Shown: piece after piece, positions 4,784 through 32,446 of the stretch | Numbering within the stretch: the first letter of the stretch is position 1 | How the letters are laid out: each line of letters opens with the position of its first letter | Source: a virus | Virus record (IMG/VR): IMGVR_UViG_3300028364_000065 | Coordinates: 1-41,854 of that record | Strand: one strand, 5' to 3' | DNA length: 41,854 nt | The notes under the pieces: generated by a model | What the model was told of the DNA's origin: nothing | Database searches by the model: none | The model's input: only the letters and a program-made list of their open reading frames with translations | Translations under genes and position numbers: made by a program

Positions 4784-6784
4784 ATGCAAACCTATACCGC
4801 CCTTGAACATCGCCCTGGCGATACGCCTCAGCTGTACGACATCGACGGCGGGCTTGTTGCGCAGAACGCAGACGGGAAAGTCGTCCGCCTCAATTCCAGC
4901 CAGCAGGTCACAGCCGTCACGCCAGTGCCAATCGAAAGCGCGGAGCGGTATAATTTCCGCGCAGTTTACCGGCGCGCGACCAACAGTCCCGATCCGTCTG
5001 ACGACGCAATTTCCTGCGGCATTGACTGGCTGGCCGCAGACAAGACCGCGCTGTCCACGACCACGATTGACACAGTCCTCAACCTCAAGGTTTCTGACGG
5101 TCGGCGCGAACTCCGGCGCGTGGTCACCGCTGCAGAAATCACACCTACCGAGCTGCAAGCGCCAGATGGCGCCCGCTACGCTGTGCCTTGGGTCCGCACT
5201 TTTGGCCTCAATCATGCCACGGACGTCGAGGTCTGCTCTCTAGAGCGTCTGAACTTTGTCTCGATCCCTGTCCAGCGGACCTTCTACGTGACGATGGACG
5301 GATCAGATACCAACTCCGGCAAGTCGCTGTCCGCTCCGCTCGCCTCGGTCGCCCAAGCGCTGGCCCGGATGGCGGATGAAGCACCCAACCCCTGCGCGGC
5401 GATCGTGCATCCAGGCGAGTATCTAGTAAAGCCAGACAGTGTGATCCCAGCGAATTGCGCCATCTATGGCTACGACCTGCGCGTCACGAAGCTGATCCTG
5501 TCGAACTCAGCGCAAACAGCGCCCGCAAGCGGCACGGCGCGGCGCAACAATATGTTCCTTATGAGAAACGGGATCAAAGCCCGCGGATTTACCTTCACGG
5601 GCCTTGAGCACGAGCCTTTCACGCTCGATGGCGGGCCGCCTCAAAAAGGCTACGCCTTTGCGTTCAATCCTGGCGAAGTCATCACCCGGTCGCCCTACAT
5701 CTCAGACTGCTCGATGTTGCATGACTTCTCGCAGGATCAGATGGCGCTGCCGATCGACAAGGCGAACGCGAACCCCCTGATGCCGCTCGGCGCAGGAAAT
5801 ATCCTTGCTGATGGTTCAGTTCTTGCGCCGTCCTCACCTCTGCGCTCGGTCGTCGTTGACAGCTTCACCTCCATCAATCCCAACGGCGTCGGCTATGCCA
5901 TAACGCGCAATGCCTTTGTCCAGCTGGTCTCGGTGTTCACCAACTGGTCGCGGGTTGGCCTCTGGGCGCACAATGGCGGGCAAGTGACCGTCGCAAACTC
6001 AAACAACACGTTTGGCGACTTTGCACTGGCATCCACAGGTTTCCGCCAAACCATCCAGATCAAAGGCGTGGCCGATCCCAGCGTGATCGAAGCATTTACG
6101 TCCTCAGCAAACCTGATCAGCACGCAAACCGAGGCAATAGTGACAGCTCTCATGGAGGTGCGCTATCCCACCATGACTGGGTGGGGCGGATTAACCGCGG
6201 ATCAAAGAACACTCACCGAGCGCGACACGCGCACATTGCTGCGCTCCATCGTAAACGATCTGCGCTCTGGCCAGGACAAGGGCGCGCAGTTCTTTGCCAA
6301 AGGGCTGTTCAATTGGAACGCGGAATATCTCTTTGCGACCTCGCTCCTGCAGCTGTTCCTCGACAGCTGGGAGCAGGTCCGCCTGGAGCTTCTTGGACGG
6401 CTCACCGATCCGGCCGCCGAGGCAATGGTTGACGGGCTGATCACTTTGATCAGCGATGTGGTCGCGAACCCTGCCAGTTTCCGGGTGGCATTCCCCTCGG
6501 TGATCGAAGCCACCGGCCAGCAATTCAGCAACGCAGGCAGCGGCGTCAACTACAACTCGCTGCCGTTCAGCCAGCGCGGCACCGGCGAAAACCCACCCCC
6601 TGCCGAGGCCATCTTCAAGGCCAATGGCGGCAAGGTCTTTGCGACCTTCTCTACCGAGGTTGGCGACACGTATCTCGGAGAGGACCTGCGCGTGGACTTT
6701 GAACGCAACACCATCGAGGGTCAGGCATTCAGTCGCGGCGTGCAGAACATCGCTCTCCCCCTCATCATCGGCATTGGAGGCTGA
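4784..6784 (+). CDS. Tail fibre/adhesin with right-handed beta-helix region
   Basis: A 666-residue structural protein of the tail tip. Residues 1-160 form a domain that could attach it to the tail. From about residue 165 the sequence YVTMDGSDTNSGKSLSAPL resembles the opening of DUF1565/pectate-lyase-like beta-helices, followed by HPGEYLVKPDSVIPANCAIY, a turn pattern common in marine phage fibres and structural proteins. A helical segment around 440-560 is unlike the rest. It lies between the Dit-like and hub genes, so a role in receptor binding or surface glycan contact is likely. No catalytic residues can be assigned. Confidence 0.6.
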   Translation: MQTYTALEHRPGDTPQLYDIDGGLVAQNADGKVVRLNSSQQVTAVTPVPIESAERYNFRAVYRRATNSPDPSDDAISCGIDWLAADKTALSTTTIDTVLNLKVSDGRRELRRVVTAAEITPTELQAPDGARYAVPWVRTFGLNHATDVEVCSLERLNFVSIPVQRTFYVTMDGSDTNSGKSLSAPLASVAQALARMADEAPNPCAAIVHPGEYLVKPDSVIPANCAIYGYDLRVTKLILSNSAQTAPASGTARRNNMFLMRNGIKARGFTFTGLEHEPFTLDGGPPQKGYAFAFNPGEVITRSPYISDCSMLHDFSQDQMALPIDKANANPLMPLGAGNILADGSVLAPSSPLRSVVVDSFTSINPNGVGYAITRNAFVQLVSVFTNWSRVGLWAHNGGQVTVANSNNTFGDFALASTGFRQTIQIKGVADPSVIEAFTSSANLISTQTEAIVTALMEVRYPTMTGWGGLTADQRTLTERDTRTLLRSIVNDLRSGQDKGAQFFAKGLFNWNAEYLFATSLLQLFLDSWEQVRLELLGRLTDPAAEAMVDGLITLISDVVANPASFRVAFPSVIEATGQQFSNAGSGVNYNSLPFSQRGTGENPPPAEAIFKANGGKVFATFSTEVGDTYLGEDLRVDFERNTIEGQAFSRGVQNIALPLIIGIGG

Positions 6785-6787
6785 ACC

Positions 6788-7207
6788 ATGGGAACCATCA
6801 TCACACCCCGTCCACCGCTAAACCTGTTCGAGGTGGTGCGCACTGAGATTGGGAGCGACTGGCAAACGATCTACGACGTGCCCAGCTATACGATCCCGGC
6901 CAATGGCCCGAACCCTTTGCGGGTGGTGGGTACGGCGGCGATCATGACGGGCCTCGCGGTCTGCCCCCTGACGCCAGCTGGCGCGACCATTTCAGCGCGG
7001 GTGCTGGCGGCAAACGGAGCGGACAACTTCCTGCTGATCGACGGTGCGTTTTCTCCTTCTGGTGACTTTCTGTCGATCTCGCTTGACCGCCAGGTGCTGA
7101 GAAACGGCGAGCAGCTTCAGGTCAAATGCGCTGCTGCGCAGACCGCCATGACGCATTTTAGCTTCATCCTCAATCAGCGCGAAGAATTCACGGAGATCCC
7201 AACATGA
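6788..7207 (+). CDS. Small tail-associated structural protein
   Basis: A 139-residue protein with no clear family. It appears beta-rich, with no signal peptide or membrane helix, and starts three bases after the preceding fibre gene; its stop overlaps the ATG of the DUF285-repeat protein (ATGA). The content (FSFILNQREE near the end, ISARVLAANG in the middle) resembles small jelly-roll-like accessory proteins encoded with fibres. A linker, fibre collar or chaperone role is possible. Function is inferred only from its place in the adhesin module. Confidence 0.5.
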   Translation: MGTIITPRPPLNLFEVVRTEIGSDWQTIYDVPSYTIPANGPNPLRVVGTAAIMTGLAVCPLTPAGATISARVLAANGADNFLLIDGAFSPSGDFLSISLDRQVLRNGEQLQVKCAAAQTAMTHFSFILNQREEFTEIPT

Positions 7208-9921
7208 GCGTGAAATATGGTTCCGGCAAGGGCAAGTTCGTCGGGCAGTCGCTCGTCTACCCATTCCCGATCCCGCTGGATGCGACACAGCACAACGGCG
7301 CGGTAATCGTTGCTGAGGACGGGCAGCTTTACTATTCCAACGGATCTGATTGGGTAATCCCGTCCGAGGTCGTGGAAATCTCGCGGCCTTCAGCGCGCGT
7401 CCCGACCAACTCGATGGAGCAGACGCAATTGCGATTATCTGCATTTAGAAGTCCCGCTGGCCTTTCGCAGGTCGGCATTCTATTCGAGATCAGCATGAAC
7501 GGCGTGGACTTTGTCGATGCGGAGACCCGACTGGTCAACGATGAGTTTGCTTCGCTCTACCAGCTTCTGTATCCCGAGGACGGTTTCGAGTCAGGCGACG
7601 AGATTTTCTGGCGCGGCAAGTATATTGGAACAGAGGGTGGTCAGTCCGATTTCTCGATCCCATTTCGGCAGACCTTCCCCAAGCTGATCGATGACCCCAT
7701 GCCAGTCACTCGCCAGGGCGCAGTCACTGGCACCGTTGAGCTTTCCCCGTTCTTCAGCGCGCTCGGCCTAGACTACGTCGAGACGCAAATTCAGTTTTGG
7801 GAAGACACTGCAAACCCCGCCGTGGACCCCCCGGTGGCAACGGTGACTTCGGTCAGCGGTGCTCTGATCAACTTGCCCACACAGCTGGTCGAAGGCCAAG
7901 CCTATCAGTGGAGCGGACGCTACGGCGGTCGGCAGGGCGGCGCTGGTCCGATCCTCTACACCGCCTTCACAGCACCACGCTTCATCCTCAAGGGTGTCGC
8001 CTCGATGATCTTGATCTACGATCCGGCTTTGGCTCTTAATCGCACGATCAACCTGCCGATGGGCGTCTACGGCGGGATCGTGAACGTAAATGTGGACTGG
8101 GGTGACGGCACTTCGAACGCCTACACCACTGGCGGCATTCGCTCAAAGACCTACGCAGCGGGCGTGACGGGTCTCGTCACTGTGATCATCAGCGGGCAGT
8201 TGGAGCAGTTCGGTGGCAACACAAACATCCAAGGGCTGATCCGAGTGGATAACATAGGTGTCGGCCTGGGCTTGAACTCTCTGCGCGAGATGTTCCGCAA
8301 CGTGACGTCCAATACCATCTTCTGCACGCCCAACATCCCGCCTACGGTCAAGAGCATTCAGGGGATGTTCTTTAACGCGGGTACCGTCACTTTCGACGTG
8401 ACCGGGTTTACTGTAGGCGAAGTGAAGGATTTTACCGAGTGTTTCCTGAATGCAGGGAGCTTTAACCAGAACATTAGCGGCTGGGATGTATCCAACGCCA
8501 ATAGTATGCGTGGTATGTTCCGAACCACGATTACGGGGCTTGATTATGTGTTCAACCAACCAATCGGTAGCTGGGACGTTTCTTCGGTCACGGACATGTC
8601 TTTCATGTTTAGCCGGAACGCGACTAATTCTGATTACTTTTTTAATCAGAACATCGGCGGGTGGGACGTGTCCTCGGTCACTAACATGTTTCAAATGTTC
8701 GGCGCGTCCCTGGTAGGCACTGACAGACCTCATTTGTTCAACAACGGGGGTACCGACTCAATCAAGAATTGGGACGTGTCTTCGGTCACTAACATGTCGC
8801 GCATGTTCTTTGGCTCTGGCGGACAATTCCAACAGCCCATAGCAGATTGGGACGTCTCTAGCGTCACAAATTTTCGTGGAATGTTCGATCGATCATTATT
8901 TAATCAGCCGCTCACGGGTTGGAACATTTCGGCAGCAATTGACGTAAGAGAGATGTTTGCAAATAGCCCATTTAACAACGACGTGAGCAACTGGGTGCTT
9001 CCCGCAAATATTCAGGCGCTTTTTCAAAGCGCAAAATCATTCAACCATCTATCAATTCTGTCTTGGGACACTTCGGGTGTCACAAACATGTCCCGACTGT
9101 TTATGGATGCAGATGCTTTCAACCAACCAATAGGCAGCTGGAACACGTTTAATGTAACCACAATGGAAGAGATGTTCTTTCCCGCGACGATCAACACTCG
9201 AATGAAATTCAACCGGCCCGTTGAGAATTGGGATGTTTCTAAAGTTATCAGCATGAAGCGGATGTTCGGTGGTTCCGGATCTTCGGATTTCAATCAACCA
9301 ATCGCTGCGTGGGACGTTTCCAAGGTCGAAGACTTTTCAGAGATGTTTTTCTGCTCAAATCCAACAAGGCCTAACAATTTCGACCAAGATATATCCGACT
9401 GGAAATTAAATACTCAATCCGCACTGATCAATGCAATGTTTGGTGGGCCGGGCTCTAATTTCTCTGCAGAGAATTACTCCAAACTTCTCGTCGGATGGTC
9501 CAACTCGATCATTGAGCTCAATGGTCCCTTCGGAGTTCTAGCTGGTTTTGGTGACCGCACCTATAACGACACGGATTACTTCGTGGGCGAACTCTACGAG
9601 AACGCTGTCGCGGCGCGTGCCTATCTGAGCAACTCTAACCGCCTGACGGTCTCTGACGCTGGCAATGCGAACGCAGATGGCAACTATCTGTTCGACGGCA
9701 CGGTACAGCTCTATGCCAACGGAAACGACTGGTATTTCATCAAGACCAGCGGTGTCTGGGAATTGCGCGACAACCTCGATGCCGTGCAAGCGACCCAGCA
9801 GGATGTGGGCAATCTCGCGGCACCTCAACTCGTTGATTCATGGAACGGCGATCTGGCAACCGCAACGGTCCTGCGCACGGGTGCGGCGTGGACCATCACA
9901 GACGGAGGGCTTGCAGCATGA
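7204..9921 (+). CDS. Putative receptor-binding tail protein with DUF285 (BspA-type) repeats
   Basis: A 905-residue protein. The N-terminus (1-270) is beta-rich; around residues 295-325 is a PKD-like VDWGDGTSN segment. Residues ~420-745 hold about twelve 23- to 30-residue units of the form FNQPIxxWDVSSVTxMxxMF, the DUF285/BspA-type leucine-rich repeat family otherwise found on bacterial and mycoplasma surface proteins. The C-terminus (~790-905) is a separate domain with YANGNDWYFI. The repeats are visibly AT-richer than neighbouring genes, suggesting transfer. It overlaps genes on both sides, so it belongs to the late operon. A role in adhesion is inferred from repeat type and place. Confidence 0.75.
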   Translation: MSVKYGSGKGKFVGQSLVYPFPIPLDATQHNGAVIVAEDGQLYYSNGSDWVIPSEVVEISRPSARVPTNSMEQTQLRLSAFRSPAGLSQVGILFEISMNGVDFVDAETRLVNDEFASLYQLLYPEDGFESGDEIFWRGKYIGTEGGQSDFSIPFRQTFPKLIDDPMPVTRQGAVTGTVELSPFFSALGLDYVETQIQFWEDTANPAVDPPVATVTSVSGALINLPTQLVEGQAYQWSGRYGGRQGGAGPILYTAFTAPRFILKGVASMILIYDPALALNRTINLPMGVYGGIVNVNVDWGDGTSNAYTTGGIRSKTYAAGVTGLVTVIISGQLEQFGGNTNIQGLIRVDNIGVGLGLNSLREMFRNVTSNTIFCTPNIPPTVKSIQGMFFNAGTVTFDVTGFTVGEVKDFTECFLNAGSFNQNISGWDVSNANSMRGMFRTTITGLDYVFNQPIGSWDVSSVTDMSFMFSRNATNSDYFFNQNIGGWDVSSVTNMFQMFGASLVGTDRPHLFNNGGTDSIKNWDVSSVTNMSRMFFGSGGQFQQPIADWDVSSVTNFRGMFDRSLFNQPLTGWNISAAIDVREMFANSPFNNDVSNWVLPANIQALFQSAKSFNHLSILSWDTSGVTNMSRLFMDADAFNQPIGSWNTFNVTTMEEMFFPATINTRMKFNRPVENWDVSKVISMKRMFGGSGSSDFNQPIAAWDVSKVEDFSEMFFCSNPTRPNNFDQDISDWKLNTQSALINAMFGGPGSNFSAENYSKLLVGWSNSIIELNGPFGVLAGFGDRTYNDTDYFVGELYENAVAARAYLSNSNRLTVSDAGNANADGNYLFDGTVQLYANGNDWYFIKTSGVWELRDNLDAVQATQQDVGNLAAPQLVDSWNGDLATATVLRTGAAWTITDGGLAA
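8455..9441 (+). repeat. DUF285-type coding repeat array (~12 units)
   Basis: Coding repeats of 69-118 bases, each giving a variant of FNQ-I--WDVSSVT-M--MF. Unit starts lie near 8461, 8551, 8641, 8759, 8827, 8899, 8971, 9041, 9119, 9209, 9289 and 9378. They have diverged at the DNA level, and base composition is lower in GC than in the flanks. Confidence 0.85.
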
Positions 9922-10118
9922 CAGAAATGAGAGCAGCGCACGAACTGATAAACGAGACCGACGCGCCGATCTATTGGGTCGCGCACGGTCCTGATCTGGC
10001 CTTTGGCACGCTCCAACCCGGCGGGCACCTAGCTACAGGCCAGGAGACCTTTGAGCAGTTTACCAGCCTGCGATTATGGCGTGGGCGGGTCATCGAACTC
10101 GGAGGCTCGTTCAAATGA
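9918..10118 (+). CDS. Small hypothetical protein of the tail module
   Basis: A 66-residue protein, translationally coupled to both neighbours: its ATG overlaps the adhesin stop and its TGA overlaps the next ATG. No family is recognised. The sequence is soluble and mixed, with WVAHGPDLAFGTLQPGG in the middle, and no membrane segment. The tight coupling with the heme-oxygenase-like gene suggests that they are made together. Function unknown. Confidence 0.55.
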   Translation: MTEMRAAHELINETDAPIYWVAHGPDLAFGTLQPGGHLATGQETFEQFTSLRLWRGRVIELGGSFK

Positions 10119-10615
10119 TGGGAGGTCTATACGTGCTGACCCGCGATCTACACCACGCCTGCGAGCAACATCCGCTGGGACAGGCAATGGTGAACGGCGC
10201 AGTCACCCCGCAACACTGGGCCGACTGGCTCTGGGCCATGCGCTGCTTGCACTCTGTCGTGGACGCAGAACTGCCAGCGCATATGGAGCGCGACGCTCTG
10301 TTTGGTGCCGACCTGTTGGTGCTGCCGAAAGCGCACGCCAGCCGTGCAGCGCTGCGCTATGCGCAAGACCTGATCGGACAGGATTGCACCGGTGCAGCTT
10401 ACGTCCTGCACGGCGCGCATCATTCTGGCGGCCGCGTGCTGGCACCCAAGATGGCCAAGCGGGGCCTGCCATCACTGCACACATCTTATCTTGATGCCGC
10501 TGCCTCGAAAGCATGGATTGTAGCGGCTCGCACCAGACTGGAGGCAACGCAGCAGGCGCGCGCGACTTTCCAGTGCCTGCTCGCGGTGATGGACGAGATC
10601 GAGGCTCGAAAGTGA
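10115..10615 (+). CDS. BphO-like heme oxygenase fold protein
   Basis: A 166-residue protein resembling bacterial biliverdin-forming heme oxygenases. The N-terminal helix TRDLHHACEQHPLGQAM has the H-x3-E spacing (His13, Glu17) of the heme-ligand helix, then a G-x-x-T...W..WL stretch typical of the next helices. Residues 94-110, AAYVLHGAHHSGGRVLA, match the BphO distal-helix pattern YVLEGs-LGGr. Family length is about 180-200, so this is slightly short. Heme oxygenases open heme to biliverdin, iron and CO. Its place between adhesin and hub genes is odd; it might have lost catalysis and serve structurally. The ATG at 10115 has GGAGG nine bases upstream; a GTG at 10133 also has GGAGG. Confidence 0.6.
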   Translation: MMGGLYVLTRDLHHACEQHPLGQAMVNGAVTPQHWADWLWAMRCLHSVVDAELPAHMERDALFGADLLVLPKAHASRAALRYAQDLIGQDCTGAAYVLHGAHHSGGRVLAPKMAKRGLPSLHTSYLDAAASKAWIVAARTRLEATQQARATFQCLLAVMDEIEARK

Positions 10616-11496
10616 AGGCCTTGCCCCCCGATCTGCAAGCCCATCTGGACAGCGCAGCAACCACGCTGGCCTGGTGCTGGCGTATCACGCGGGCTGACGG
10701 TGTTGTGCTCGGCTTCACCGATCATGATCGCCACCTGACCTTCGATGGAACCAGTTTCGAGCCCGAAAGCGGGCTTGTGGCCTCTGAGCTCCGCTCGGGC
10801 TCAGACCTCTCGGTCGATGCCCAAGACGCCGAGGGCGTGCTGACTTCCGACCGGATCACCGAGACCGACATCGCCGATGGCCGCTGGGACAATGCCGCAG
10901 TCGAGGTCTGGCGGGTGAACTGGGCCGACACCGGCCAGCGCGCACTTCTGCGCCGCGGGGCGATCGGCCAGATCAGGCGTGGTCGCTTGGCCTTTGTCGC
11001 CGAGGTGCGCAGCATGGCTCATGTGCTGGGACAGACCATCGGGCGCAGTTTCCAGGGCACATGCGACGCAGCATTGGGGGATGCGCGCTGCGGGATTGAT
11101 CTGGAGAGCCCCGCATTCAAGGGCACAGGCCTCGTGACAGAGCTGCTGCGCGACCGCGCGTTTCTCGCCTCGGGCATTTTCAGCTTTGCGGATGGGTGGT
11201 TTTCCGGAGGGACGGTTCAATGGTCCTCGGGCGCCAATGACGGACGGCAGGCTGAGGTCCTGATCCATACGGTCGCAGGCGGCATCGTGACCGTGACGCT
11301 GCTCGAAGCCCCGGTGCGGCCGATCGCTGTCAGCGATACCTTCGTGATCCGCGCTGGCTGTGACAAGCGCGCCGAGACCTGCCAAGCCAAATTCGCCAAT
11401 ATGGTGAACTTTCGCGGCTTTCCCGACATCCCCGGCCAGGACGCCGTGATCCGCTATGCCACCAAGGACGGTCGGCACCAGGGCAATGTGCTATGA
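10612..11496 (+). CDS. Baseplate hub protein, DUF2163 (GTA gp13-like)
   Basis: A 294-residue protein of the DUF2163/BR0599 family, which forms the hub below the distal tail ring in gene transfer agents. Family features are the N-terminal TLAWCWRITRADG, GFTDHDRHL, and the C-terminal cysteine cluster AGCDKRAETCQAKF followed by NFRGFPDIPG. Translation starts at GTG overlapping the previous stop (GTGA). It is followed directly by the NlpC/P60 peptidase and megatron, the standard gp13-gp14-gp15 order. The cysteines in the C-terminal domain suggest metal or Fe-S binding, as reported for the GTA hub. Confidence 0.9.
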   Translation: MKALPPDLQAHLDSAATTLAWCWRITRADGVVLGFTDHDRHLTFDGTSFEPESGLVASELRSGSDLSVDAQDAEGVLTSDRITETDIADGRWDNAAVEVWRVNWADTGQRALLRRGAIGQIRRGRLAFVAEVRSMAHVLGQTIGRSFQGTCDAALGDARCGIDLESPAFKGTGLVTELLRDRAFLASGIFSFADGWFSGGTVQWSSGANDGRQAEVLIHTVAGGIVTVTLLEAPVRPIAVSDTFVIRAGCDKRAETCQAKFANMVNFRGFPDIPGQDAVIRYATKDGRHQGNVL

Positions 11497-19405: not shown

Positions 19406-19439
19406 GAGCCTCCGCACAGCGTGACGCACAGTGCTGGGC

Positions 19440-20735
19440 ATGAACATGCCCCTTCAATATTTGAGCGTCTGCAGCGGCATCGAGGCCGCCAGCGTCGCAT
19501 GGGAGCCGCTCGGCTGGCACCCCGTCGCTTTCAGCGAGATCGAGCCGTTCCCATCGGCGGTTCTCGCCCATCATTACCCAAGCGTCCCGAACTGGGGCGA
19601 CATGACCCGTTTAAAGGAATGGCCGGATGCAGCTGTCGATCTTCTCGTTGGTGGAACCCCCTGCCAGTCCTTCAGCGTCGCCGGGCTCCGAAAAGGACTG
19701 GACGATCCGCGCGGCAACCTGGCCCTCGTCTATCTGGGACTGGTTGACCGCTACCGGCCCAAGTGGGTGGTTTGGGAGAACGTCCCCGGCGTCCTGTCAT
19801 CGAGCGGCGGACGGGACCTTGGTGCCTTCCTCGGGGGCTTGGGCGAACTCGGGTATGGGTGGGCCTACCGAGTGCTGGACGCTCAGTACATCCGAACACG
19901 CCGCTTTTCCGGTGCCGTTCCCCAGCGGCGACGCCGTGTGTTCGTTGTCGGATATCTTGGAGACTGGCGACCTCCCGCAGCGGTACTTTTTGAGCCCGAA
20001 AGCCTGCGCGGGCATCCTCCGCCGCGCCGCGAACAGGGGCAAGGATTTGCCCACGATGTTGCAGGGAGCCTTGTCAGCAGTGGTCGCGGAGTCGCAAACT
20101 GTGGCGAAACCAGAGGACAAGACCCTGTCGTCGGATTGATCCGGCAGGGTTTCGGAGGCGGCAACACCTCGGGACCAATCGACGTCGCCGCCTGCCTGAC
20201 CGCCAAAGGGCAGCGCATCGATTTCGAGGTCGAAACATTTGTGGCGCATACACTGCGAGGTGAGGGCTATGACGCGAGCGAGGACGGAACTGGCCGCCAG
20301 AATCTTGTTCCAATCGCATTCGACTGCAAAGGAAGCCAAGCGCAGGTGGACGTTTCCGGGGCCACGCCGACTCTCCGCGCCATGGGCAGCGCCGGATCGC
20401 TTGCCAATGCCGGTGGCCAGTTGGCTGTCGCGTTCGACCTTCGAGGCCGGGAAGGCGGCGCGATGCCGGAGGGACCGCACGACACCGCAAACATTCGCGC
20501 TGCCTCTGGTGGGTCGAGCCGGTCTTACATTGCCACGCGCTGGGCAGTGCGTCGACTGACGCCCCGCGAATGTGAACGGCTTCAGGGTTTTCCCGACGAC
20601 TACACGCTTATTCCATACCGGCATGGCAAGCCCGCTGCCGATGGCCCGCGCTACAAGGCGCTGGGCAACAGCATGGCGGTGAACGCCATGGAGTGGATCG
20701 GCCAACGCATCGATTTCGTTCGCAGCCTTCTCTGA
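19440..20735 (+). CDS. DNA cytosine-C5 methyltransferase
   Basis: A 431-residue Dcm-type enzyme that methylates C5 of cytosine in duplex DNA, probably to hide phage DNA from host restriction. Motif I is LSVCSGIEAASVAW; motif IV is GGTPCQSFSVAG with catalytic Cys75; motif VI is ENVPG (Glu113); motif VIII is QRRRRVF; motif X is ALGNSMAVNAM. A long variable region (~190-370) holds the target recognition domain. No restriction partner is beside it, so it is an orphan. The ATG at 19440 lacks a clear ribosome binding site; GTG 19431 and ATG 19446 are alternatives. The leader carries the CCTTTCCGCGCC motif. Confidence 0.93.
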   Translation: MNMPLQYLSVCSGIEAASVAWEPLGWHPVAFSEIEPFPSAVLAHHYPSVPNWGDMTRLKEWPDAAVDLLVGGTPCQSFSVAGLRKGLDDPRGNLALVYLGLVDRYRPKWVVWENVPGVLSSSGGRDLGAFLGGLGELGYGWAYRVLDAQYIRTRRFSGAVPQRRRRVFVVGYLGDWRPPAAVLFEPESLRGHPPPRREQGQGFAHDVAGSLVSSGRGVANCGETRGQDPVVGLIRQGFGGGNTSGPIDVAACLTAKGQRIDFEVETFVAHTLRGEGYDASEDGTGRQNLVPIAFDCKGSQAQVDVSGATPTLRAMGSAGSLANAGGQLAVAFDLRGREGGAMPEGPHDTANIRAASGGSSRSYIATRWAVRRLTPRECERLQGFPDDYTLIPYRHGKPAADGPRYKALGNSMAVNAMEWIGQRIDFVRSLL

Positions 20736-21958: not shown

Positions 21959-22107
21959 CCTGCCCTCCCTGCAACAACGACTGCCGCCAAGGACGTGACT
22001 GCCCCGCGCGAGTACGGCGAGAGCTTCGTTTCCCGCCCAGATGGTGGATCGCGCTGGGCGCAATCGTCGGCCTCCTGTTCTGGATCGATCTATTCTTGGT
22101 TCTTTGA
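21955..22107 (+). CDS. Small cysteine-rich membrane protein
   Basis: A 50-residue protein; the ATG overlaps the preceding stop (ATGA). The first ~20 residues hold four cysteines (TCPPCNNDCRQGRDC) and the rest is one strong membrane helix (WWIALGAIVGLLFWIDLFLVL). A short protein with a cytoplasmic zinc-knuckle-like head and one span. Function unknown; possibly superinfection exclusion. Confidence 0.5.
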   Translation: MTCPPCNNDCRQGRDCPARVRRELRFPPRWWIALGAIVGLLFWIDLFLVL

Positions 22108-22162
22108 CTTGACCCGTGGCGGCTTCAATGGCGTCACGGGACGTGTCTCAAATGGTGCGAAA

Positions 22163-23422
22163 ATGAGCAGCAGACAGCGATTGAAAGAAAAACTGGTCAA
22201 GGAGGCGGAGCCACGCGCGCGCCCCTACCAGCTGTTTGACGACGAGGTGCTGGGCTTCTCGGCGGTGATCCAGCGGACGGGAAGCCGCGGCTTCTACCTC
22301 GATTACACTATCAAGGGGCGGCAGCGCCGCATGGCCATCGGGCGCTGGCCGGAATGGAGCGTCGTGGCCGCGCGCGACCGCGCCAAGCAGCTGCGCCGCG
22401 ATATCGACGATGGCCACGACCCATTAGCAGAGCGCGAGGAAATCCGCGCAGCGCCACGGATCCCGGACCTGATCGACCGATACCTCCGCGAGCACGCCGC
22501 GCACCTCGAGCCGCGCAACGCGTCCGACCAAGCGTCGATGCTTCGGAAGCTGGTCGAGCCTCACTGGAAACATCGCCTCGTCTCGGAAATCGAGGCGTCT
22601 GACGTCGAGCGCATTCTCGGCATGATCGCCGAAGGGCGGGCGCGCCCGTCGAAGGACAAGGGCACGAGTCGACGCAAGAAGCTGGCACCCGCAAAGCCGA
22701 CACCGATCAGGGCGAACCGAGCGGGCGAGGTCCTGCGCAAGATGTTCAACCTCGCTGTGGCGTGGAAGATGCGCGCCGACAATCCCGCAGAGGGCTTCAG
22801 GCGACGCTTGGAGACAGAGCGGGAGCGGTTCCTGTCGATCAAGGAAATCACACGGCTTGGCGACGCGCTGCAGGCGGCGGATGACCAGCGCGCCGCCGCA
22901 ATAGTGCGAATGTGCATGCTGACGGGCGCGCGCCTGGGCGAGGTCCGGACGGCGCGGTTCGAGCAGTTCAACCTCGACCTGGGGACTTGGTCCAAGCCCG
23001 CAGCCAACACCAAGCAGCGCCGGGTGCACCGTGTGCCTATCTCTGCCGAGACAGCCGGGCTTGTGCGCCTGCGCCGTGTGGCGGTGCCGAAGGGATGCGA
23101 ATGGTTGTTTCCCGGCGACGCGCTGGGCGCGGACGGGATGCCAAAGGACCAGCCGGTGCAAGATATCAGGCGTTTCTGGACCGCGATCCAGACGGCCGCG
23201 CAGTTGCCCGAGGTCAGGATCCACGATCTGCGCCACACCTTCGCCTCTCTGCTAGTCAGCGGCGGTGCTTCGCTCGAGATGATCGGGAAGCTGCTGGGGC
23301 ACACGCAGATGCGGACAACGCAGCGCTATGCGCACCTTCTCGACAGCCCGCTTCGGGCGGGAGTGGACGCTGTGGCCGACATCATGAAAGCACGTCCGCG
23401 CGTGGTTCGAGGCGGCGAGTGA
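22163..23422 (+). CDS. int: Tyrosine recombinase integrase (DUF4102/P4-like)
   Basis: A 419-residue integrase. The N-terminal part (FDDEVLGFSAVIQRTGSRGF, RRMAIGRWPEWSV) is the arm-binding DUF4102-like domain; the core-binding domain follows (~100-230). Catalytic residues: Arg in TGARLGEVR, Lys in NTKQRRVHRVPI, His and Arg in HDLRHTFAS, His in LGHTQ, Tyr in TTQRYAH. The family commonly inserts in tRNA genes, consistent with the tRNA-fMet core at 20923. ATG at 22163 chosen because the family-like sequence begins there. A perfect hairpin overlaps its stop codon. Confidence 0.93.
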   Translation: MSSRQRLKEKLVKEAEPRARPYQLFDDEVLGFSAVIQRTGSRGFYLDYTIKGRQRRMAIGRWPEWSVVAARDRAKQLRRDIDDGHDPLAEREEIRAAPRIPDLIDRYLREHAAHLEPRNASDQASMLRKLVEPHWKHRLVSEIEASDVERILGMIAEGRARPSKDKGTSRRKKLAPAKPTPIRANRAGEVLRKMFNLAVAWKMRADNPAEGFRRRLETERERFLSIKEITRLGDALQAADDQRAAAIVRMCMLTGARLGEVRTARFEQFNLDLGTWSKPAANTKQRRVHRVPISAETAGLVRLRRVAVPKGCEWLFPGDALGADGMPKDQPVQDIRRFWTAIQTAAQLPEVRIHDLRHTFASLLVSGGASLEMIGKLLGHTQMRTTQRYAHLLDSPLRAGVDAVADIMKARPRVVRGGE

Positions 23423-27330: not shown

Positions 27331-27936
27331 ATGACGCAGGACCTTTCCACCGCTGTCATGAAGCCCCTCTGGCCTGTTGGGCAGTTTGATCTGATCATGG
27401 CAGACCCGCCGTGGCGGTTCGCGACGCGTTCAAGCAAAGGCATCACTCACAAGGGCGCAGGCGGCCATTATCGCACCCTTCCGCTTTCAGAAATCATGGA
27501 TTTGCCTGTCGCTGATCTTGCCGCCCCTGATTGCCTTTTGTGGCTTTGGGCGACAAACCCCCTTCTGCCGCAGGCCTTTGAGGTGCTGGCTGATTGGGGG
27601 TTCACCTTCAAGACTGCCGGGCACTGGTGCAAGACGACATCGCGCGGTGGACTGGCCTTTGGCACTGGCTACATTCTGCGCTGCGCAGGCGAGCCTTTCT
27701 TGATCGGGACCCGCGGGCGACCGAGAAACACAAGATCGACCCGATCCGTCGTGATGGGGCAGGTGCGCGAGCACAGTCGGAAACCCGAGGCGGCTTACGC
27801 TGCAGCCGAGGCGCTGATGCCCGACGCGCGTCGCCTCGATATGTTTTCCCGCCAGCAGCGATCGGGCTGGACGGCCTTTGGCGATGAAGTCGGCAAGTTC
27901 GACGAGCCTCTGCTCCCGACGGAGGCGCAGGTATGA
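27331..27936 (+). CDS. MT-A70-type DNA adenine N6-methyltransferase
   Basis: A 201-residue enzyme. The catalytic motif DPPW lies at 25-28 (DLIMADPPWRF); the AdoMet-side motif is degenerate, as is usual in the MT-A70 family; LLWLWATNPLLP and HSRKPEAAY are further typical segments. It would transfer methyl to adenine N6 in DNA. It lies in the early operon with no restriction partner, so protection of phage DNA or gene control is likely. GGGGAG lies before the ATG; the stop overlaps the next start (ATGA). Confidence 0.9.
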   Translation: MTQDLSTAVMKPLWPVGQFDLIMADPPWRFATRSSKGITHKGAGGHYRTLPLSEIMDLPVADLAAPDCLLWLWATNPLLPQAFEVLADWGFTFKTAGHWCKTTSRGGLAFGTGYILRCAGEPFLIGTRGRPRNTRSTRSVVMGQVREHSRKPEAAYAAAEALMPDARRLDMFSRQQRSGWTAFGDEVGKFDEPLLPTEAQV

Positions 27937-31204: not shown

Positions 31205-32446
31205 TTGCAGATCGAGATGATGCCAACCGAGCGGCTCGTGCCCTACGCGCGCAACGCTCGCACCCATTCCGACGAGCAGGTCGCGCAGATCGCTGCCTCG
31301 ATCCTCCGGTTTGGTTTTACCAATCCGATCCTGATCGGCGACGACGATGTGATCATCGCTGGCCACGGTCGCTTGATGGCTGCGAAGCAACTCGGCTTGG
31401 ACGAAGTCCCGACCATCCGTTTGGCGCATCTGAACGAGGCGGAGCGCCGCGCGCTGGTCGTCGCGGACAACAAGATCGCGTTGAACGCCGGATGGGACAC
31501 CGACATTCTTTTTGAACAGATCGAGCTGATCCGCGCTGACGGCTTCGACATCGACCTGGTTGGTTTCTCAGACGAGGAACTGAAAGGGATGCTCGAGGAC
31601 ATTGAGGATCCAGAACTTGGCGACGGTGTTGAGGGCGAGGACGATGTGCCAGAGCCTCCGGCCGACCCGGTCTCGGTGCTCGGCGATCTGTGGACCCTTG
31701 GCAACCACCGGCTGCTCTGCGGAGACAGCACCCTTGCCACCGACGTCGAGCGCGTGCTCGGCGGTGTGAAGCCGCTTTTGATGGTGACCGACCCGCCCTA
31801 CGGCGTCGAGTACGACCCAAGCTGGCGCAACCAGGCGGGCGCGGCCAGCACCAAGCGGACCGGCAAAGTCCTGAACGACGACCGCGCCGACTGGCGCGAA
31901 GCCTGGGCGCTGTTCCCCGGCGACGTGGCTTACGTCTGGCACGGCGCGCTGCACGCCACTACGGTCGCCGAAAGCCTGATCGACACCGGCTTCAACATCC
32001 GGTCGCAGATCATCTGGGCAAAAGACCGTTTGATCCTCAGCCGCGGAGACTACCACTGGCAACACGAGCCCTGCTGGTACGCGGTCCGCAAGAAGGGCAA
32101 GGGACACTGGGCGGGCGACCGGAAGCAGACGACGCTCTGGCACATCGCCAACAAGGACCAGGACGCCGAGACAGTCCACGGCACGCAGAAGCCGGTCGAG
32201 TGCATGCGCCGGCCGATCCTCAACAACTCAAGCCAAGGCCAAGCGGTCTACGAGCCCTTCATGGGATCGGGCACCACGCTGATCGCGGCCGAGACGACCG
32301 GGCGCGTCTGCTACGGGATCGAGTTGAACCCCGCCTACATCGACGTGATCGTGGAGCGCTGGCAGAACCTGACCGGCCAGACCGCCGTCCTCGATGGTGA
32401 CGGACGCACGTTTGCAGAGCTGGTGGCGGAGCGGAAGGCGGCGTGA
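31205..32446 (+). CDS. ParB/Srx-like domain fused to DNA methyltransferase
   Basis: A 413-residue fusion. Residues 1-130 are a ParB-like nuclease/Srx fold (LVPYARNARTHSDEQVAQIA, then IIAGHGRLMAAK with the GHGR motif). Residues ~155-413 are an N6-adenine or N4-cytosine methyltransferase with DPPY at 196-199 and AdoMet motif EPFMGSGTTLIAAE near the C-terminus, giving the beta-class order. Typical for phage-encoded orphan methyltransferases. Translation probably starts at TTG 31205 with GGAG upstream; ATG 31217 is an alternative. The stop overlaps the next GTG. Confidence 0.92.
   Translation: MQIEMMPTERLVPYARNARTHSDEQVAQIAASILRFGFTNPILIGDDDVIIAGHGRLMAAKQLGLDEVPTIRLAHLNEAERRALVVADNKIALNAGWDTDILFEQIELIRADGFDIDLVGFSDEELKGMLEDIEDPELGDGVEGEDDVPEPPADPVSVLGDLWTLGNHRLLCGDSTLATDVERVLGGVKPLLMVTDPPYGVEYDPSWRNQAGAASTKRTGKVLNDDRADWREAWALFPGDVAYVWHGALHATTVAESLIDTGFNIRSQIIWAKDRLILSRGDYHWQHEPCWYAVRKKGKGHWAGDRKQTTLWHIANKDQDAETVHGTQKPVECMRRPILNNSSQGQAVYEPFMGSGTTLIAAETTGRVCYGIELNPAYIDVIVERWQNLTGQTAVLDGDGRTFAELVAERKAA

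Follow-up and report, generated by a model that had tools for sequence, protein, structure and literature searches.

A divergent heme oxygenase family gene at the end of a mobile tail-fibre cassette in uncultivated phages

The gene at positions 10115-10615 of the window (the whole 41,854-nucleotide stretch of viral DNA analysed here) encodes a clear relative of the heme oxygenase (HO) superfamily and stands at the end of a mobile tail-fibre cassette, not in the baseplate hub operon that it abuts. We consider it somewhat probable that the product is a divergent heme-binding, probably catalytic HO that is made late in infection together with the fibres. To our knowledge, previously described phage HOs are metabolic genes carried by cyanophages and pelagiphages, in many cases together with bilin reductases. 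The proteins considered here form a new HO clade, present at 120 or more loci of uncultivated phages and in alphaproteobacterial prophages, that is tied to receptor-binding cassettes and not to pigment genes. This linkage suggests that heme has a part, so far unrecognised, in infection by these viruses, and the family provides a tractable protein with which to ask why heme is degraded by phages of non-photosynthetic hosts. A search confined to open-access papers, with subscription papers outside its reach, found no report of an HO beside phage tail genes.

Table 1. Genes of the fibre cassette and its downstream neighbour, with candidate active-site positions of the HO-family protein
Feature	Position	Strand	Remarks
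666-aa tail fibre / baseplate-related protein, first cassette gene	4784..6784	+	PHROG tail fibre / baseplate wedge matches
fib139, all-beta cassette protein	6788..7207	+	HO gene follows in every relative with enough sequence to tell
905-aa DUF285 repeat protein, variable fibre tip	7204..9921	+	Pfam DUF285 5.9e-82
Small ORF, 66 aa	9918..10118	+	ATGA-coupled to the HO gene
Heme-oxygenase-family gene	10115..10615	+	166 aa; 165 aa from second ATG
Proximal helix motif H12-H13-A-C15-E16	10151..10165	+	H12 = HO-1 His25 (heme ligand), E16 = Glu29
H45, D49	10250..10264	+	Align with HO-1 Tyr58, Glu62
Distal helix Y95-V-L-H-G99-A100-H101-x-x-G104-G105	10400..10432	+	Alignment to HO-1 and plant HO
R138, candidate propionate-binding Arg	10529..10531	+	HO-1 Arg183 equivalence inferred; plant HO Arg aligned
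DUF2163 / phiJL001 Gp84-type baseplate hub protein, first post-cassette gene	10612..11496	+	Pfam 3e-61, 2.6e-27

The open reading frame starts with an ATG at 10115 that is preceded by GGAGG, has a second ATG at 10118, from which residues are numbered here, and ends with TGA at 10613-10615. Its overlaps with the small gene upstream (ATGA, 10115-10118) and with the hub gene downstream (GTGA, the hub GTG lying at 10612) agree with the coupling described in the first-pass annotation. A chance reading frame is ruled out because the protein has relatives in IMG/VR (31 by sequence scan, at least 120 by profile scan), because 29 columns are invariant in an alignment of 22 diverse members, and because dN/dS among close homologues is 0.07-0.17. 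On this comparative evidence the frame is a real and functional gene on which purifying selection is strong. An in-frame TGA reported for one other locus (L389) falls outside the HO domain.

The AlphaFold model of the gene product (pLDDT 95.9) contains eight helices, and its best 50 Foldseek matches in the PDB are all heme oxygenases, with rat HO-1 at E 3.4e-5 and TM 0.84. Against viral models there were two significant matches only, both named haem oxygenase. The model thus argues strongly that the protein folds as the helical bundle of the PF01126 superfamily; neither another fold nor loss of the heme pocket, either of which would have counted against the original reading, is predicted, and the proximal His-Glu dyad is present. 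In primary sequence, single-sequence searches were silent and the relation to HOs emerged with family profiles only. The window protein alone gave no significant match in Pfam, PHROGs or the PDB and no credible match among 50,697 GenBank phage records (best E 0.5); searches with three other members found no relatives in GenBank phage records, and a search with one member found none in plasmids. The family profile, by comparison, returned heme oxygenases as its best 19 matches among PDB sequences (E 0.0017-0.58), and one member, from another contig, passed the PF01126 cut-off of 23 with a score of 23.7.

The gene had initially been called BphO-like for its H-x3-E helix and the YVLHGAHHSGGR stretch, both of which are indeed in the protein (HHACE at residues 12-16 and residues 95-106, respectively). 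The likeness survives in part: the family has the HO fold and proximal His in common with BphO, and in profile-profile comparison BphO (98.9%, 4e-17) outscores canonical HO (96.9%, 1.5e-10). In the tree, however, the phage proteins and four prophage or chromosomal copies make up one clade (support 97/93) that stands apart from BphO and from canonical and cyanophage HO, with the BphOs across the midpoint root. The distal motif also departs from the BphO form, YVxEGSxLGG/A, in that the phage version, YVLxGAHxxGG, is one residue longer and includes Ala-His. The phage proteins are about 165 aa long, and their genes lie by fibre genes and not beside a bacteriophytochrome gene, a single chromosomal copy (L124) being the sole exception. 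As judged from tree and motif, the phage protein is a separate HO branch and not a BphO.

The residues aligned with known heme contacts, whose roles and conserved positions are described for HOs (PMC5623701), divide between the two faces of the heme site. His25 of HO-1 and its partner Glu29 are present as H12 and E16, the heme-edge residues Tyr134 and Arg183 correspond to Y95 and R138 (the latter equivalence is inferred), Gly143-Gly144 to the GG kink G104-G105, and Asp92 to D65. All 45 members compared (41 phage representatives and 4 prophage or chromosomal members) retain H12, E16, D49, D65, Y95, G104, G105 and R138. H12, E16, H45, D49 and H101 are invariant across the 41 phage representatives, and H45, found in 41/41 of these, is Gln in three of the four prophage or chromosomal members. 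C15, H45 and H101 vary among those four members, and H12 and E16 never do, the pattern that selection for heme ligation would be expected to leave. Four distal residues of HO-1 are absent: Tyr58 is replaced by His45, His132 by a residue other than His, Arg136 by Leu97 and Asp140 by His101.

These losses count against the HO reading, and the Asp140His substitution strongly lowers the activity of human HO-1 (PMC7948506). A100-H101 aligns with Gly139-Asp140 of HO-1 and also with the Ala-His pair that occurs naturally at this place in plant-type HO (GmHO-1/HY1), where Ala149-His150 supports an alternative hydrogen-bond network that replaces the HO-1 Asp in an active enzyme (PMC7948506). Arg136 and Asp140 do not define the HO superfamily as a whole, to judge by the analogy of an active plant HO that also has neither. 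With the proximal motif kept and A100-H101 as in the plant enzyme, the proximal side is classical and the distal side plant-HO-like. The analogy is confined to the distal pair, since in plant HO the helix with the proximal His is shifted and the Glu partner is not used, whereas the phage family keeps the Glu, and plant HOs have no close sequence relation to the phage family. With canonical HO-1/HmuO and the cyanophage Ho1 of P-SSM2 and its relatives the family has the fold and the H-x2-[AC]-E proximal motif in common, and with HO-1 the distal-helix spacing (Y-x4-A-H-x2-GG in the phage proteins), the GG pair and the Tyr134 and Arg183 positions; it differs from both in belonging to another clade and lacking the distal Asp.

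The genomic setting also differs from that of other phage HOs. Cyanophage ho1 was not among fibre genes in three stretches read, one copy lying between ribonucleotide reductase genes. The vHemO genes of pelagiphages and freshwater phages, one of which makes biliverdin (PMC11480375), are phage-borne too but lie in hemO-pcyA/X-alaS cassettes at another genomic site. Neither a bilin reductase nor a Fer2 ferredoxin was found in 22 contigs of HO-bearing phages, which makes cyanophage-style pigment synthesis unlikely and means that host reductants would be needed.

In the window the gene order is tape measure, DUF2460, 666-aa fibre, fib139, DUF285, small ORF, HO, DUF2163, NlpC/P60 and GTA TIM-barrel. 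Of 79 hub-gene relatives, 63 have DUF2460 as the first gene upstream that could be identified, directly adjacent in 40, and a fibre-HO cassette occupies the DUF2460/DUF2163 site in only four window-like contigs. Because DUF2460 and DUF2163 are usually neighbours and the cassette stands between them in these four contigs only, the HO-ending cassette was inserted there. The placement of the gene in a hub-coupled tail operon therefore needs revision: the overlaps are real, but the hub coupling is peculiar to this phage group, and the gene ends a fibre cassette. The 66-aa ORF resembles the N-terminal domain of DUF4376 proteins of about 190 aa that precede HO in related cassettes; its homologue in one locus (L125) matches DUF4376 at E 3.9e-18, and the DUF4376 part is missing from the window ORF (9918-10118). 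The fold of fib139 gives weak jelly-roll-like matches only and nothing heme-related.

Related cassettes vary in content. The DUF285 tip is swapped for Mtd_N/collagen and other tips, and a 354-aa glycosyltransferase-2/TPR-like gene (L043:5573-6637) lies between fibre genes, upstream of tip and HO, in seven related cassettes. Two loci (L055 and L069) have the same fibre layout, with HO proteins 90% and 52% identical to that of the window, and these alleles suggest that a recombination boundary falls at HO.

Across phages, fibre-family genes lie upstream of HO in 36 of 42 non-redundant loci, and the next downstream gene comes from many families, with holin-like and M15 endolysin genes often following. 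A scan for the fib139 family (type-A fibres), made with an alignment built from HO-bearing phages and counted over the best 80 loci, placed HO 2-7.5 kb downstream in 39/39 judgeable loci (27 non-redundant); among the same best 80, no locus with at least 8 kb of downstream sequence is without HO. Tip proteins differ greatly among the 27 non-redundant loci, and HO distances are correlated with those of fib139 (Spearman 0.39, Mantel p < 0.001). In a second fibre family (type B), homologous to the first, HO is nearby in 16 cases and not in 33, and a search of the remainder of the latter contigs found HO mostly absent there. In one group (L080) the HO gene is away from fibre genes, one contig having a fibre gene about 46 kb off. 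In L080, L088 and L090 the gene sits among small non-tail genes, apart from fibres.

The explanation that we favour accounts for these observations as follows. In the protein, folded as predicted into the HO bundle, H12 would ligate the heme, E16 would keep the imidazole in place, and Y95 and R138 would secure the edge of the heme and its propionates, roles suggested by the invariance of the aligned residues. Heme would then be oxidised to biliverdin, CO and iron with electrons from host donors, the Ala-His pair serving on the distal side by analogy with plant HO. Co-translated with the fibre genes late in infection, the enzyme may act in the infected cell by lowering free heme and releasing iron during virion production. 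The gene travels from phage to phage along with its fibre cassette, a linkage that is observed directly, and its benefit may hinge on which host or receptor is selected by the fibre. An HO function beyond fibres is favoured by the L080 group and by the copy next to a bacteriophytochrome fragment, where a biliverdin-making BphO would normally stand, though the latter is a single case and its bphP is interrupted. Besides the lost distal residues, the short protein (165 aa against 190-230) and the missing bilin-pathway partners count against the HO reading. A late site beside fibres is odd for a metabolic gene, and heme breakdown alone does not explain the strict linkage.

How that linkage is to be explained separates the principal alternatives. 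The gene could be a passenger (moron), an accessory metabolic or lysogenic-conversion gene at the fibre/lysis junction whose link to fibres has no functional cause; this overlaps with the favoured explanation and differs from it on that one point. The fibre/lysis junction is a common insertion site, in keeping with the lysis genes that come next in many loci, and the integrase of the window phage and the copies in prophages fit an accessory gene. Patchy occurrence would be expected of a passenger, yet among the best 80 loci every type-A one with sufficient downstream sequence has the gene, and the strong purifying selection is likewise unfavourable; we regard this account as possible, with the balance leaning against it.

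Alternatively, an HO that keeps its fold and heme site might have been repurposed to work with the fibre, as a heme-binding virion part, an assembly factor or a redox or heme sensor, instead of degrading heme. Its tightest link is indeed with the fibre module, whatever the unrelated tips, the cassette moves as a unit, and both the bilin-pathway partners and the distal catalytic Asp are missing. Against such a role, cassettes often already have a chaperone-like gene (DUF4376 or Phage_tail_APC), and a search of HO members for Tfa, DUF4376 or APC domains gave no match that would mark them as tail fibre assembly chaperones. No tail-domain fusion occurs among the inspected ORFs, the L080 group keeps the gene apart from fibre genes, and many type-B fibres do without it, so that we think repurposing unlikely. 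We are equally doubtful of a reading in which HO is an obligate partner of the receptor-binding module, with the virus sensing, carrying or removing heme for fibre function or receptor control; by one such route, lower host heme might raise the fibre's heme or iron receptors or keep them free. If true, this would be the first functional tie of heme chemistry to phage tail fibres.

Two further proposals fare worse. An HO-fold di-metal oxidase that binds no heme could be built from H12, E16, H45, D49 and H101, whose invariance in the 41 phage representatives fits such a site, but no diiron or TenA-type protein is among the best 50 PDB fold matches, and prophage members vary at H45 and H101 but not at H12 and E16; we hold this to be very improbable. 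Other phages are known to have HxH fibres that bear iron, and an Alteromonas phage was found with six potential iron-binding fibre domains, but the idea that HO frees heme iron to load such fibres is extremely improbable, since HxH is absent or single in nearly all cassette fibre genes and loading is disfavoured by this lack of enrichment.

Copies outside free phages are sparse. The family profile matched 6 of 395 genomes in the Aliiroseovarius family and 2 of 385 in its class, with one genome counted in both; the matches include prophages (in G001, G355 and G318 among others), and two weak ones are true BphOs beside phytochromes. In the chromosomal copy mentioned above (L124:8372-10151, minus strand), which nests inside the phage clade in the tree, the HO gene is separated by about 0.4 kb from the bacteriophytochrome fragment that follows it, an N-terminal piece interrupted by a transposase gene. 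This one locus suggests that a phage-clade protein can fill the place of BphO, possibly because a phytochrome locus captured a phage HO. Deletion tests are feasible with prophage copies, for instance that of Aliiroseovarius sp. S1123. The window phage is itself probably temperate, with an integrase at 21995-23422, and its 42 kb hold three DNA methyltransferase genes (19431-20735, 27331-27936 and 31205-32446), of the C5, MT-A70 and N6/N4 (with ParB_N) types.
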